64,000 nt of DNA from Candidatus Enterovibrio escicola (GTDB lineage: Bacteria > Pseudomonadota > Gammaproteobacteria > Enterobacterales > Vibrionaceae): NCBI RefSeq assembly GCF_002464935.1, contig NZ_NBYY01000009.1, forward strand, positions 248,001 to 312,000. The letters are read 5' to 3'. The notes beneath the pieces are model-generated. The model was not told where the DNA came from, did not search any database, and was given only the letters and a program-made list of their open reading frames with translations. Shown here piece after piece: positions 3,160 through 38,924 of this stretch; the first letter of the stretch is position 1; each line of letters begins with the position of its first letter. The translations under genes were made by a program, and so were the position numbers.

Positions 3160-5373
3160 TCAGTGAAGACGTTTCACTCCATGCACCTCTTTAACTTGCT
3201 GTAATCGACTAATCACCCGACTGAGCACCTCAAGATCACTCAATTCCAAATCAAAATCCATGATACAAATTTCTTTTTTGTAATCAATACGAGTTCGCAT
3301 ACCCGATACTTTAACTCTCTCATTGGTCAGTACTGTATTGAGATCTTTAATCAACCCATTTCGCTCTGTAGCAGATACACGCACACAGATCTGGTAACTA
3401 CCAATATATCCCCTCCCCCATACTGTCTCGATAATACGTTCAGATGCATGATGACGGAGCTTTGATAGCTGATCACAGTCCGCACGATGTACCGAGATAC
3501 CTCGACCCTGTGTCACGTAACCTTCAATGGCATCTCTAGGTATAGGTTGGCAACAACGCGCAAGGTGGATCATTAAATTATCCACGCCTTTCACCACAAC
3601 TACATCTCGACGGGGTTTTTTCGGTATGAATGTCGTATCTGTTTGCTCTAATCTTTGGCGGAGTTGCTGATCTTCTTCTGCTTTTGTCGGTTTGTTAAGC
3701 AAAGAATTTATGTAATTAACTACTTGGTTTATCCGCAGATCACCGCTACCAACACCCGCATAAATTTCATCAATGCTGTTCACATTGAAACGTTTCATGG
3801 CCAACGTTACATCTTTACTCACTGCACTGATTTTCACCAGTTCCATATCTAGGATTTCTTTACCTGCAACAACATTTTTTTCGTATGCTTGCTTGCGGAA
3901 CCACGCATTGATTTTGGCACGCGCACGACCCGACGTGACAAAACCTAGGTTTGGATTGAGCCAATCACGAGATGGGTTAGGCTCTTTTTGAGTGATAATT
4001 TCAACCTGATCACCCATGCTCAGATGATACATGAACGGTACAATACGCCCTCCTACTTTTGCACCGATACAACGGTGCCCAACTTCTGAGTGGATATAAT
4101 AAGCAAAATCTAGTGGCGTAGCACCTGTGGGTAAATCCACCACATCACCGCGTGGGGTAAAAACGTAGATACGATCATCAAGCACCTGACTATGAAGTTC
4201 ATCAAGTATTGTACCAGAATCCGACACTTCCTTTTGCCATGCAAGCAGTTTACGAAGCCAAGTAATCTTCTCATCATAACCTCTCCGACCAATAGAGCTC
4301 CCTTCTTTATACTTCCAGTGTGCAGCTACTCCAAGCTCTGCTTCATCATGCATGTGCCTAGTACGTATTTGAATTTCGACGGTTTGGTTTTTCGGCCCCA
4401 ATACTACCGTGTGAATGGATTGATAACCATTCGGTTTAGGATTGGCAACATAGTCGTCAAATTCTTTAGGGAGGTGACGATATTTAGTGTGCACTATACC
4501 AAGTGCGGCATAACAATCTTGCAGGTGATCAGTGATAATGCGAATTGCACGCACATCAAAGAGTTCTTCAAATTCGAGGTTTTTTTCCTGCATTTTTAAC
4601 CAGATACTATAAATATGCTTAGGTCTGCCATCCACTTGAGCATTAATGCTAGATGACGCCATTGCTTCTTGTAGGTCTACCACAAACTTATCAATATATT
4701 GCATTCTCTCAATACGACGTGCAGCCAATTTCTTGGCAATTTTCTTGTAAGTAGCAGAATGCTGATAACGAAATGCGTAATCTTCAATTTCCCATTTTAA
4801 CTGCCCAATACCCAGGCGATTTGCCAGTGGTGCATAAATGTTGGTACACTCTTTAGCGACAGACTGTCGAATTTCATCTGATTTATTCTTTACTTCACGT
4901 AGATGGCTAATTCGCTCTGCTAGCTTGATTACCACACAACGGAAATCAGCCACCATTGACAACAACATACGACGGACGTTATCCACTTGCGCATAAGGTA
5001 CCGCTTCTTTTGTTGTAGCATTGAAGTGGTGAATTGCCGCCATTTCCTCAACCCCACAGACCAATCTGGCAATAGTATTACCATAAACTTCCGTCAATGT
5101 GAGACGATCCAGTAACCCATCCTCTACCATAGGAAAGAGCAAGGCTGCCTGTAATGTTTCCTTGTCCATACTCAACGTGACAAGAATTTCTACCATTTCA
5201 CGGCCACGACAAAGGGGTTGCACCCGTGACGTATCATCGCCCAATGTCAAGCAATGATGATAGACGTCAATCAACACCTGAGAAATTACTGGCCCTTGGT
5301 CAAGTACTGCCACCCAGATCTCAAGTGTAAAATCTGCATTGTCATTTAGATGTGAGCCACGTATTGCAACCAT
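3160..5373 (-). CDS. relA: GTP pyrophosphokinase, (p)ppGpp synthetase I
   Basis: Ribosome-associated synthetase that makes (p)ppGpp from GTP or GDP and ATP during amino acid starvation. At 737 aa it is near the usual length of about 744. Domain order is a degenerate N-terminal HD-like hydrolase region (FPMVEDG where active enzymes have HDTVED), the synthetase domain with GYQSIHTVVLGP and EIQIRTRHMHDEAELG, a TGS domain (DRIYVFTPRGDVVDLP), a conserved CC region (ARCCQPIPRDAI) and a C-terminal ACT domain. The lost HD motif fits RelA rather than the bifunctional SpoT. The start gives MVAIRGSHL, matching RelA N-termini. The upstream gene rlmD is a pseudogene and the downstream mazG is gone, yet relA itself shows no damage. 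Confidence 0.96.
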   Translation of the reverse strand: MVAIRGSHLNDNADFTLEIWVAVLDQGPVISQVLIDVYHHCLTLGDDTSRVQPLCRGREMVEILVTLSMDKETLQAALLFPMVEDGLLDRLTLTEVYGNTIARLVCGVEEMAAIHHFNATTKEAVPYAQVDNVRRMLLSMVADFRCVVIKLAERISHLREVKNKSDEIRQSVAKECTNIYAPLANRLGIGQLKWEIEDYAFRYQHSATYKKIAKKLAARRIERMQYIDKFVVDLQEAMASSSINAQVDGRPKHIYSIWLKMQEKNLEFEELFDVRAIRIITDHLQDCYAALGIVHTKYRHLPKEFDDYVANPKPNGYQSIHTVVLGPKNQTVEIQIRTRHMHDEAELGVAAHWKYKEGSSIGRRGYDEKITWLRKLLAWQKEVSDSGTILDELHSQVLDDRIYVFTPRGDVVDLPTGATPLDFAYYIHSEVGHRCIGAKVGGRIVPFMYHLSMGDQVEIITQKEPNPSRDWLNPNLGFVTSGRARAKINAWFRKQAYEKNVVAGKEILDMELVKISAVSKDVTLAMKRFNVNSIDEIYAGVGSGDLRINQVVNYINSLLNKPTKAEEDQQLRQRLEQTDTTFIPKKPRRDVVVVKGVDNLMIHLARCCQPIPRDAIEGYVTQGRGISVHRADCDQLSKLRHHASERIIETVWGRGYIGSYQICVRVSATERNGLIKDLNTVLTNERVKVSGMRTRIDYKKEICIMDFDLELSDLEVLSRVISRLQQVKEVHGVKRLH

Positions 5374-35673: not shown

Positions 35674-36548
35674 TGTATTAAGTCCTAAATTTTCCCTGAC
35701 ATTTCTACCGTGTTCTTCTGTATTACCTTTTGCGGAGCGAGACATATTCGCTATACGTAAATCTTCTATTGCTATCATCGCGTGATTTTTGCTGATTTGA
35801 TTAGAAGTTTTGTGTAGAAAGTCTTTGCAGCAATTGGTAATTCTAGAGTGCAGGGTTTAAATTTTTGCTATTTATTTTTTTAATTAGCAGAGAGTTTAAC
35901 TTTCTTTGCCCGCTTATGTTGTTCTTTAGTTAGTCAATCTGAGTGATTGCGATAGCCATTTCATGGCTTAACGTGATGCTCCATCAGAAAGAGCAATGAA
36001 CCTAGTGATGCCCATATTAACGCCAATAGCAGACATTGAGTCATTTGTAGGCTCTATAATTTCTTGCTCAACCTAAAATGAAATATACCAGTGACCAGAT
36101 TTAAAACTAACGGTGCAATTTTTAATTAAACTTTATACGTCTTGAGACTTGCGGAATTTAACCAAACCTACTATTTTCGGTAGTTTTACTCGCGAGGCAT
36201 CTAACTGGCAATATTTGTTAAAATTAATGAAACGGATTGAGTCTTGGCTCTTTCCCTTCTTTGTAAATCTCGGTCTTTCTGACGTAAGTATCTTATCAAA
36301 ACAATGCATCCACACACCGTGCAAGTCCTTTAATTTTTGTTGTAGGTTGTCGGTATATGCACCTTTCAATCAAGAGAGGTTTTCTTTTTTTGGGTCTGCG
36401 GATTTAGTGATTGATTTTCACAGGATTTATTAATTGGTTAAAATCGGATTTAATGATTGACATCATAAACCAAATACACTTGTATTAAGAACGTGGAGAC
36501 ATCCACAGCCGAACTCAGCGGTGACTCTGAAAAGACAAGGATTTAACC

Positions 36549-37310
36549 ATGAAAACTATCTCTATTGCTGAATTTGAAACTCTGGTAGCTCGCAACGACT
36601 GGCAGCGAGAACAAGATTGCGAAGTTTTAGAGCGTCTTGATCGTTAGGTTGAAGAGTGGAACGAAGAAAACGAATCTTTTGATCTGAACGATATTCCTCA
36701 CGTTTTTGGTTTGGCTTCTAAAACCTCAACCTTAGATGGTATCAAAATTACTTACACCGAAGGCTTTAACTACGACGAATGCAACTCCGACTCTCTGTCT
36801 ACAGGAACCGAGGGACAGGATGCTGGTTGGTCTGTAGAAAGCGTTACGGTTGTTGATGAAAATGGTGACGAGCTGAATGCACACGAATTGGCTGACTATC
36901 TGGATTCTGATTTCAGCAGTATTAATTACAGCGTACTTGAGATAGAGCAAATAATTGACGTAGATGAGGACTCTGACATGGAAACATTTACACTTGATAT
37001 TGATAACGAGCCAAACGTTCGCTTTACTGGTGAACTGGTAGCAAATGCGGCTAGTTCTGATAATCAAGCTATTGGCGGTAGTTATAACGGTCAAACTGGT
37101 CGTTGGACAGAGTTATCTCTTTACAAGACCAAAGGCGGAAAATTTATCTGTCATCAAGTTGGTCGCACTAAAAGGCAAGATGAGCGTGACCGTTTTAGCG
37201 GCAAGGTCTGTGAAACGCTGGAAGAGGTTAAAGAGTTTTTTGGCCACCGCTGGCTATCCAAAGAGTTGTACGCTGAGGCTAGCATTGATGATGTAGTAGA
37301 AGTGGAGTGA
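36549..37310 (+). CDS. Acidic passenger protein of unknown function, in-frame amber codon
   Basis: No function recognised. The frame runs from ATG 36549 (MKTISIAEFETLVARNDWQR) to 37310 but has a TAG at 36645-36647 (codon 33). Translation could restart at TTG 36711, giving 199 aa. Text before and after the TAG is equally protein-like and in the same frame, so the TAG looks like a single change, perhaps from CAG (Gln). The first about 150 residues are very acidic (VDENGDELNAHELADYLDSD, DVDEDSDMETFTLDID). The C-terminal about 70 residues are mixed and compact (GGKFICHQVGRTKR, EFFGHRWLSKELYAEA), a style I associate with plasmid-borne hypothetical proteins, though no family is named. Codon use is less A/T-biased than nearby relics. 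It shares the element with the ISL3 transposase, 45 bp upstream of it. Confidence 0.65.
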
Positions 37311-37355
37311 CAGCAATGGGCTTCGGCTCCTGTCTTTTTGACTATGACAAATATT

Positions 37356-38531
37356 ATGAATTGGCCTGACTACAATGTTAGTCAGGTTCATGAATCTGAG
37401 TATGATTATCAGGTTTACGCTGAACTAAAATACCCGCCTTCATTTTGCATCCACTGCTACACATCTGATCTCGTTGGTTTTGGGAAAAGAACCGAAATTC
37501 TTATGGATAGACCCATGCACGGCAAGCATGTCGGCATCCACCTAAATCGTAAACGTTTTAAGTGCCAAAGTTGTAATAAGACGTTCTACAAGCTTATATC
37601 GCGCAAAGATAAAAAACGTAGGATGACTAAACGGCTTATTGAATACATCGAGCGAGAGAGCCAGAAACGTATATTTTTAAGTATTGCAGATGATATAGGT
37701 GTGGATGAAAAAACAATCCGTAACATATTTCAAGATTACTGCGAGCGTGAAGAAGAACAACTGAAATTCGAAATGCCAAAATGGTTAGGAATTGATAAAA
37801 TTCATATCATCAAGAAACCTCGATGCGTGTTACCCAATATTGAGCATCAAACAGTCATTGATATGCTCGACAACCGTAATAAATCAACTCTACTTTGCTA
37901 CTTTACAAAATGCGAAGACAGAGAGCGTATTGAATTTGTCGCAATGGACATGTGGCGTCCTTATAAGGACACGGTAGAAACCATGATACCGAATGCCACT
38001 ATCGTCATAGATAAGTTCCACGTAGTCAAAATGGCTAACGAGTCGTTAGAGCGTGCAAGAAAAGCAATATGTAGCCAACTTACGCCACAACAGCGCCGTG
38101 GACTACTAAAGGATAGGTTTGTACTGCTAAAGCGAAAGCACGAACTCTCAGATGCGGAATACTTACGTTATTCTGGCTGGATACTTAACTATCCTGAAAT
38201 GGAAAAAGCTTACGAATTTAAAGAGTCTTTCTTTGTCATTTGGAACAGTCAGACGCGTGATGAAACTCAGCAAGCTTACTACGCTTGGCTACGACTGGTT
38301 TCACCTGAAATGACGCGGTCTTTCGATCCGTTAATCAAAGCTATGGGGAACTGGCACAATGAAGTTTTTGCGTACTTTGATCATCCAATAACGAATGCTT
38401 ATACGGAAAGTCTCAACAACCTCATTCGAGTTATGAACCGTACTGGTCGAGGTTATAGCTTTGAAGCTCTTAGGGCTAAAATGCTATTTACTGAAGAATT
38501 ACAAAAAGTGAAACGTCTACTATATCAATGA
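37356..38531 (+). CDS. ISL3-family transposase
   Basis: 391 aa DDE transposase from the ATG at 37356 (MNWPDYNVSQVHESEYDYQV); ATG 37344 is also in frame. An N-terminal zinc ribbon (CIHCYTSDLVGFGK, then CQSCNKTFY) is followed by a helix-turn-helix region (IADDIGVDEKTIRNIFQDYC) and the catalytic domain with LGIDKIHI, IVIDKFHVVKMAN and NAYTESLNNLIRVMNRTGRG, which supplies Asp, Asp and Glu. The size and motifs fit the family (about 400 aa). No frameshift or internal stop is seen, in contrast to every other transposase in the window. Confidence 0.95.
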   Translation: MNWPDYNVSQVHESEYDYQVYAELKYPPSFCIHCYTSDLVGFGKRTEILMDRPMHGKHVGIHLNRKRFKCQSCNKTFYKLISRKDKKRRMTKRLIEYIERESQKRIFLSIADDIGVDEKTIRNIFQDYCEREEEQLKFEMPKWLGIDKIHIIKKPRCVLPNIEHQTVIDMLDNRNKSTLLCYFTKCEDRERIEFVAMDMWRPYKDTVETMIPNATIVIDKFHVVKMANESLERARKAICSQLTPQQRRGLLKDRFVLLKRKHELSDAEYLRYSGWILNYPEMEKAYEFKESFFVIWNSQTRDETQQAYYAWLRLVSPEMTRSFDPLIKAMGNWHNEVFAYFDHPITNAYTESLNNLIRVMNRTGRGYSFEALRAKMLFTEELQKVKRLLYQ

Positions 38532-38924
38532 GATCCAATTCCTGATGATGCCATTAGCTTGTTTGATATGGCTGTGGAACCGAAAATAGTAACGAACTAT
38601 GGTTCGAGCATATCAACTTTGATCAAATAATTTGGAAGGGATTTTAAAAGTCCCATTTCACTCACTAAATCCGCATACCCATTTTTTCTTCCATCTTATA
38701 ATCAGCTTGTGTAAATCAAAGACACTTGGGATCTTCTCACCTTTATCAAGCTTGTCTAAGCAATGACGCAGTCCCTGATTCCACACAAACCGTACATGGC
38801 CGCCAAGCACAGTTAGTCCAACTACCTATTCGGTGGTAGGTTCTAATCTAAATTTATAAGATGTAAGTATTAACATGATGTTTAGTATCATATAGATTAT
38901 TTTTTTGAATAAGAATTCAATCAA

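Follow-up and report, generated by a model that had tools for sequence, protein, structure and literature searches.

Element in the window

The window analysed here is a stretch of 64,000 nucleotides from the genome of 'Candidatus Enterovibrio escacola' MJ02. It carries a transposon of the ISL3 family, in which a gene for an acidic two-domain protein (the passenger) stands directly upstream of the transposase gene, with a predicted two-hairpin leader in front of it. The features are as follows, in positions of the window:

36384 to 36391 (no strand): left flank, the expected target duplication site, CTTTTTTT, agreeing at 6/8 positions with the right flank
36392 to 36415 (+): left terminal inverted repeat of the ISL3 element, outer edge set from the 8-bp target duplications of sister copies
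36487 to 36551 (+): two-hairpin leader RNA ending at the passenger ATG, predicted by covariance model R1 (56.7 bits, E=7.8e-15, the window copy being outside the model)
36493 to 36506 (+): leader hairpin 1
36514 to 36531 (+): leader hairpin 2, its outermost pair lost in the window copy (by eye)
36549 to 37310 (+): passenger gene, two domains, 253 codons, interrupted by TAG; by translation 85.9% identical to the intact Escherichia coli protein WP_001681711
36645 to 36647 (+): in-frame TAG at passenger codon 33, from the translation
36975 to 37307 (+): passenger C-terminal domain, EXLDI-like by alignments and by a relative at the TIGR04342 cut-off, predicted as a beta-sheet and two helices from the model of the Amphritea domain
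37311 to 37343 (+): passenger-transposase spacer, 91% identical to that of E. coli; the terminator-like hairpin is weakened here relative to E. coli and Amphritea
37344 to 38531 (+): ISL3 transposase with a premature TGA at 38529-38531, from Pfam/NCBIfam matches, translation and alignment to intact relatives
38657 to 38680 (-): right terminal inverted repeat, edge set from sister copies
38681 to 38688 (no strand): right flank, the expected target duplication site, ATTTTTTC, compared with the left flank

The sequence-only reading of this DNA had placed the only intact mobile element of the window at 36391-38681, with matching ends around one passenger and one ISL3 transposase. The repeats (24 bp, 92% match as first delimited), the transposase and the single reading frame upstream of it were all confirmed. 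The limits hold except for the outermost base on each side: the outermost T/A pair of the repeat as noted is target DNA, and the true edges, GGG...CCC, are at 36392 and 38680, because the target duplications of sister copies place them there. With these edges, the left and right repeats agree at 21/24 positions, as imperfect terminal inverted repeats do in ISL3 elements, where they are about 15-40 bp long. An exact target duplication was not found in the window copy, its flanks agreeing at 6/8 positions.

The transposase matched DDE_Tnp_ISL3 in Pfam (E=2.2e-61) and NF033550 in NCBIfam with 265 bits (cut-off 180). PF01610, PF13542, and PF14690 were all above their cut-offs, which corresponds to an ISL3 DDE transposase with zinc-ribbon and helix-turn-helix parts. 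Counted from its ATG, it has 395 residues out of about 433 (397 in the listed open reading frame, because the start was taken there at an upstream TTG), and the homologous frame runs on past the TGA to about 38630. It thus falls short of the full length found in relatives, 433 residues in Vibrio harveyi and 436 in E. coli. In the passenger, the TAG at codon 33 means that the listed frame of 199 aa is only the part 3' of the stop. Since both genes carry nonsense changes, the element is not intact. Nor is it the only candidate, as no stop interrupts the transposase frame in four sister copies at other places of the genome. Uniqueness in the genome was ruled out by a DNA search, which found 19 matching places. 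Judged from its sequence, the window copy is an ordinary decayed relic of an ISL3 transposon.

Passenger and transposase in related elements

Intact relatives of the element were found in E. coli, Amphritea atlantica, and a Lysobacterales bin. In E. coli, 2/5426 genomes hold at least 80% of the element, one on an IncK2/Z plasmid and one on the chromosome of a different strain; the two copies are 100% identical over 2300 bp and lie at unrelated sites. The chromosomal copy has the exact 8-bp target duplication GCTTTATG, and exact 8-bp duplications also flank the Amphritea element and a related element on V. harveyi plasmid pvh3, so that the duplication size of ISL3 is seen in both sister and relative elements. 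Matching flanks were not found for the E. coli plasmid copy or for the Lysobacterales copy (0/8 in the latter), and comparison of the plasmid copy with a related empty plasmid gave no clean target duplication. The expectation that the repeats lie at element ends in other copies was borne out, with target duplications in sister copies and in relatives. Since 8-bp target duplications bound whole sister elements, they show that the passenger and the transposase transpose together as one unit.

Inside this unit, the two genes have different degrees of divergence. Between the window and E. coli, the passenger genes are 86% identical, the leader regions 81%, and the transposase genes 66%. Between the window and V. 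harveyi pvh3, the transposase genes are 85% and the right ends 91% identical, and the cargo is unrelated. Synonymous divergence (dS) of E. coli and Amphritea is 0.05 in the passenger and 0.50 in the transposase; for E. coli and Lysobacterales the values are 0.22 and 0.74, and for Amphritea and Lysobacterales 0.22 and 0.57 (transposase dS between the two deep lineages was not computable). When E. coli and Amphritea were compared in 60-base steps starting at the leader, identity stayed at 95-100% through roughly the first 115 bases of the transposase and was 75-96% after that. A terminator-like hairpin with a T-run lies between passenger and transposase in the E. coli copy, and the spacer is identical in Amphritea; a scan did not find this pattern at the spacer of the window copy. 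The simplest reading of these comparisons is that leader, passenger, and spacer have been exchanged as a cassette by recombination between transposase lineages.

Other loads in the same slot

The V. harveyi pvh3 element (L012:3181-5322) has the exact 8-bp duplication CAAAACTC. Its transposase gene, 85% identical to that of the window, and its similar ends are combined with frames of 52 and 155 aa as cargo in place of the acidic passenger. The 155-aa frame is signal-peptide-like by eye, and its product had no Pfam or NCBIfam match above cut-off. An ISL3 relative in genome G416, of the same class (L151:2625-6635), is 4,011 bp long, with 24/24 matching ends and the exact duplication ATTTGATT. Its cargo before the transposase is a BsuBI/PstI-type restriction endonuclease (E=1.8e-60), the stop of which overlaps the start of a transposase about 54% identical to that of V. 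harveyi. Just upstream of the endonuclease lies a 506-residue frame that we label as methyltransferase-like; its scanned fragment had no Pfam hit. In genome G321, three identical 4.3-kb stretches (L147, L149, and L150) carry a fragment of an ArsP-type permease upstream of an ISL3 transposase. In elements with target duplications at their ends, three different loads thus occupy the slot just before the transposase, and the permease is a candidate fourth.

Passengers inside ISL3 ends have been described before. In a published account, ISPst2 is an ISL3 element with an ArsR regulator and a permease as passengers, which the G321 arrangement recalls, and ISArsp7, another ISL3 element, is listed with an 8-bp duplication (PMC6305408). 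Relative to ISPst2-type elements as presented there, the transposase family and the position of passenger genes inside the ends are alike; the cargo of the element studied here differs in being an uncharacterised two-domain acidic protein with a structured leader, in a cassette apparently exchanged between transposase lineages.

Two-hairpin leader

The leader occupies about 55 bases upstream of the passenger ATG and forms two predicted hairpins, reaching the ribosome-binding region. It was modelled from a free alignment of nine leaders (eight distinct; three ISL3-borne and six non-ISL3), picked from 15 aligned; the Halomonas leader, which did not align in register, was left out, as were the leaders of the window copy and its MJ02 sisters, in which the first loop is one base shorter. 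In the stems, 96.3% of cells pair. Both sides have changed in 7/10 pairs, which 3/500 shuffles reach, and double-changed cells number 17 against 5.1 in shuffles (0/500). Sliding the partners by 1-3 columns lowers pairing to 36-43%. Both stems are supported by this alignment, with covariation across ISL3-borne and free-standing genes.

Besides the window copy, the model finds the seven other complete-ended MJ02 copies given to it, and in the whole MJ02 genome 13 places score above 55 bits. A relative outside the model, L061 (genome G207), gave a weak match (19.2 bits, E=0.012) that ends exactly at the ATG. When the whole records behind 14 loci were searched, the best match was the leader before the passenger-family gene in eight, all of them training sequences, and second matches did not exceed 21 bits; four of the 14 records had no match at E<=1. 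A 25-bit match in G058 was rejected, as it lies away from family genes and its sequence is unlike a leader. A class-wide search of 229 genomes gave weak matches (E<=0.1) in 12 genomes besides MJ02, which is at or below the chance expectation, and at 11 of these 12 the one neighbouring frame compared was nothing of the passenger family.

No known RNA family could be assigned to the leader: Rfam 15 matched neither the window nor the E. coli leader (E up to 1), and in nine other loci its three matches all lay away from the leader. In several relatives, a -10-like box is visible by eye about six bases 5' of the first stem, and from its position we infer that the hairpin would stand at the 5' end of the mRNA.

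Passenger family and domain structure

In the window, passenger residues 1-142 have an isoelectric point (pI) of 4.05 and a charge of -31, in agreement with the earlier description of the first two thirds as very acidic; the last 110 residues have a pI of 4.96 and a charge of -6. In two-domain relatives, the N-terminal part is about 140-160 residues long. Nine such domains were compared, including one nearly identical pair; in all nine the charge is -16 to -25 per 100 residues and the pI is 4.1-4.2, which is the strong negative charge over a compact domain that characterises DNA-mimic anti-restriction proteins. The roughly 110 residues that follow are only mildly acidic. The acidic domain fits nucleic-acid mimicry, and a DNA-mimic or anti-defence role is possible for the passenger.

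The family is rare, with 3/369 genomes of the class positive, MJ02 included. In genome scans, a whole-protein alignment picked acidic patterns and gave nothing, and an alignment of the C-terminal domain worked. Passengers about 80-100% identical to the E. coli one have this ISL3 transposase downstream in every copy that spans both genes (MJ02, E. coli, Amphritea, and Lysobacterales). The expectation that the passenger always sits upstream of an ISL3 transposase therefore holds for close passengers but not for the wider family, which lies mostly outside: the transposases of E. coli and V. harveyi, the only two sought, had no significant match at 17/17 other family loci (best E 0.46), within flanks of only about 1.5 kb for L041, L043, L061, and L062 and with almost no upstream DNA for L076. 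L062 is itself a weak member of the family (E=6.8e-6). Two-domain forms outside ISL3 were found on Shewanella and Halomonas plasmids, in a Methylophaga bin, and in two phage contigs. The halves also occur singly, the N-terminal one in phage contig L029 and the C-terminal one in L039 and L076. The lone acidic domain of L029 (IMG/VR contig, 3542-3919) is two frames upstream of a frame labelled by eye as dihydrofolate-reductase-like, and in Psychrobacter (L035:3095-4207) the C-terminal domain is present as a tandem duplicate.

When the passengers of E. coli, Amphritea, and Lysobacterales are compared pairwise, the ratio of nonsynonymous to synonymous divergence (dN/dS) is 0.09-0.20 in all three pairs. 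Because of these ratios, selection on the protein is indicated, and the intact passenger is shown, by this measure, to be under purifying selection outside MJ02.

The C-terminal domain is related to the uncharacterised EXLDI family (TIGR04342), for which a Desulfobacteraceae relative scored 32.1 against a cut-off of 32. The E. coli passenger (14.1) and the Halomonas relative (15.7) missed this cut-off, the Shewanella relative and the window part had no match, and among further relatives all but one scored at most 20.4 or did not match. The alignable C-terminal domain is the likeness to EXLDI, and the added acidic N-terminal domain is the difference. Pfam, PHROGs, and PADLOC gave no match that supports an assignment of the passenger; the sole PHROGs match below 0.01 was phrog_34759, of unknown function (E=0.0027). 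No solved-structure relative was found by sequence, three protein queries against 50,697 phage records had no match, and no mention of the E. coli accession WP_001681711 was found in the literature searched.

The C-terminal domain of the Amphritea protein was modelled with a predicted local distance difference test score (pLDDT) of 85 and a predicted template modelling score (pTM) of 0.76, as beta-strands followed by two helices. In VIA-align, PARP WGR domains and PUR-alpha are at the top of the list for this domain, with Z of 4.6-5.1 and 51-95 residues aligned in the better rows. WGR and PUR-alpha folds bind nucleic acid; the likeness is a weakly similar predicted fold, and the difference is that no Pfam sequence match to them is listed for the passenger. 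The whole passenger model has a pLDDT of 82 and a pTM of 0.47. Its best structural row is a homologue of the quorum-sensing regulator RsaM, matched to residues 1-131 (Z 5.6, 98 aligned). Foldseek with the whole model found nothing in PDB at E<=0.001 and one unnamed viral protein (8.5e-5), and with the C-terminal domain nothing at E<=0.001. The absence of other folds from these structural searches is not counted as evidence.

Copies in the MJ02 genome

The MJ02 assembly comprises 2,645,619 bases in 39 contigs. According to its published description, MJ02 is the luminous symbiont of the anglerfish M. johnsonii, with 974 pseudogenes in its genome; 57 of the 888 transposase genes belong to ISL3, and every transposase is classed there as a pseudogene (PMC6020299). 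Eight of the 19 places that match the element are essentially full length, and 16 copies or fragments were compared with the E. coli element. The passenger is broken by stops or frameshifts in 12/12 copies that cover at least 233 codons. C25a, C25b, C32, and C20 are short ends, for which this test says little; C20 is a fragment of 316 bases, and its apparent full coverage arises spuriously from the alignment. The lesions of the 12 copies are mostly at different positions, with two stop positions each common to one pair of copies.

Transposase frames without stops were found by protein-level match in C6b, C37, C15, and C38; DNA alignment to the diverged E. coli transposase places one out-of-frame gap in each, absent in the protein-level match. 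Exact 8-bp target duplications are present in four of the eight complete-ended copies (C22, C12, C37, and C38), and the flanks of the others are inexact (C13 7/8, the window copy 6/8, C34 5/8, and C6b 1/8). Copy C37 (G000:C37:28951-31257, L023) has both ends, an exact target duplication, and a transposase frame without stops. It fits poorly with the statement of the genome description that MJ02 transposases are truncated or lack repeats (PMC6020299).

In a tree of 10 copies the tips are long and the branches between them very short, so that the MJ02 copies look like one burst followed by independent decay. The stops shared by the window copy and C38 and by C22 and C37 were rejected as evidence for the movement of copies already broken: with a tree so nearly devoid of internal structure, recurrent mutation is equally likely.

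Interpretation

Our preferred reading, which we consider probable with slightly more than even confidence, is that of a decayed ISL3-family transposon whose cargo is an exchangeable expression cassette. The cargo may be a host-conflict or establishment gene of phages or plasmids that was captured by the transposon. Its acidic N-terminal domain would mimic nucleic acid or sequester a basic partner, and the EXLDI-like domain at the C-terminus would bind either nucleic acid itself or an enzyme that works on it. The gene may have its own promoter, and the 5' end of its mRNA may be protected or regulated, the hairpins there setting mRNA stability or translation. The terminator-like hairpin of E. 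coli and Amphritea would limit the transposase to low read-through and leave the cargo at full expression.

Several results weigh against this reading. Terminator-like patterns in the E. coli copy number 4 against a shuffled expectation of 2.4; with the total so near expectation, only the position of the hairpin and the identical Amphritea spacer speak for it. Promoter-like sites in the E. coli copy are at chance (2 against 2.1 in shuffles), and they are absent there in the window copy. Further pair types in the leader are no better than shuffles (377/500), and the slide control is biased towards the stems, which were read from the same sequences. Of 16 non-ISL3 loci for which upstream DNA exists, the leader is matched in seven, and six of these served as training sequences; the model has no match in L011 (where hairpins are visible by eye), L029, L034, L037, L041, L043, L062, L077, and L078. 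Structural matches are weak, with a best Z of 5.1 for the C-terminal domain (5.6 with the whole model), and Z below 8 may reflect just a common arrangement; the C-terminal value is below both the trusted fold level and the tool's typical best Z for models without a clear match. No PADLOC family was matched by four passenger-family proteins. The low passenger dS could come partly from constraint on synonymous sites.

If constraint explained the whole pattern, the apparent mosaic would reflect stronger selection on the passenger and not an exchange of cassettes. In the three pairs computable for both genes, dN and dS are indeed each lower for the passenger. Still, a tenfold dS gap, as seen for E. 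coli and Amphritea, is a large one for constraint at the codon level, the identity of these two falls abruptly once about 115 bases of the transposase are passed, and the V. harveyi element, whose transposase is of the lineage matching the window, has no such passenger at all; we regard this explanation as unlikely. The V. harveyi element also bears on the idea that the passenger is no cargo but an accessory regulator of its own transposon, acting on transposase activity or target choice, since its transposase gene, 85% identical, has moved with unrelated cargo. The position of the passenger immediately upstream of the transposase in the same orientation, the terminator-like hairpin that separates the two in E. 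coli, and the occurrence of the closest passengers only with this transposase are in its favour. However, the 17/17 other family loci without a significant match to this transposase speak against it, as do four MJ02 copies that pair open transposase frames with broken passengers, where complementation in trans is possible. A regulatory role is accordingly very unlikely in our estimate.

An ordinary decayed insertion sequence, with the passenger as a neutral hitch-hiker without present function, would agree with the broken state of 12/12 well-covered MJ02 passengers and with the classing of all transposases of the genome as pseudogenes in its published description (PMC6020299). For MJ02 itself it may be correct, but outside MJ02 the passenger is intact and conserved (dN/dS 0.09-0.20), the covarying leader is retained, and relatives are found in phage contigs and plasmids, and as a general account it appears improbable. 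A narrower form of the conflict role is that of an anti-defence DNA mimic proper, whose acidic domain blocks a restriction or other defence nuclease and so helps the plasmid or phage of the transposon to establish. The N-terminal charge of all nine relatives, the phage contigs and plasmids among the homes of the family (besides genome contigs of unknown mobility), and the restriction endonuclease in the same slot of a relative agree with it. Against it, PADLOC gave no match, sequence comparison reached no solved structure, the best N-terminal structural neighbour is the RsaM homologue (Z 5.6, 98 aligned), and acidity alone is common in marine proteins; this role is tentative and, on balance, rather doubtful. 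A more elaborate scheme can be drawn, in which the cassette regulates itself and counters defence: the passenger would bind, through its C-terminal domain, the two hairpins in the leader of its mRNA, and its acidic part would disable an enzyme of the host that acts on nucleic acid. The cassette of leader, gene, and terminator would shuttle among phages, plasmids, and ISL3 elements, and the clade would use the fixed slot before the transposase to trade conflict genes, restriction systems included. This scheme has, in our opinion, a low probability.

Insertion sequences are usually treated as transposase-only. What is new here under the preferred reading of an exchangeable cassette is an apparently swappable acidic-protein cassette with a structured leader inside an ISL3 element, the leader being in no RNA library searched. 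If the arrangement is general, ends with a cargo slot upstream of the transposase would be a route for small transposons to gather and spread conflict genes. The leader is a handle for finding more of the passenger family and offers a direct test of whether the passenger protein controls its own mRNA.

RNA genes near related elements

Matches to known RNA families were observed near relatives. On the V. harveyi plasmid, the region upstream of the ISL3 element has a sok antitoxin RNA (L012:2409-2568) next to a gene annotated as Hok/Gef. On the Halomonas plasmid, a C4 antisense RNA with its a1/b1 targets (L011:3975-4176) lies about 1.3 kb upstream of the passenger relative.

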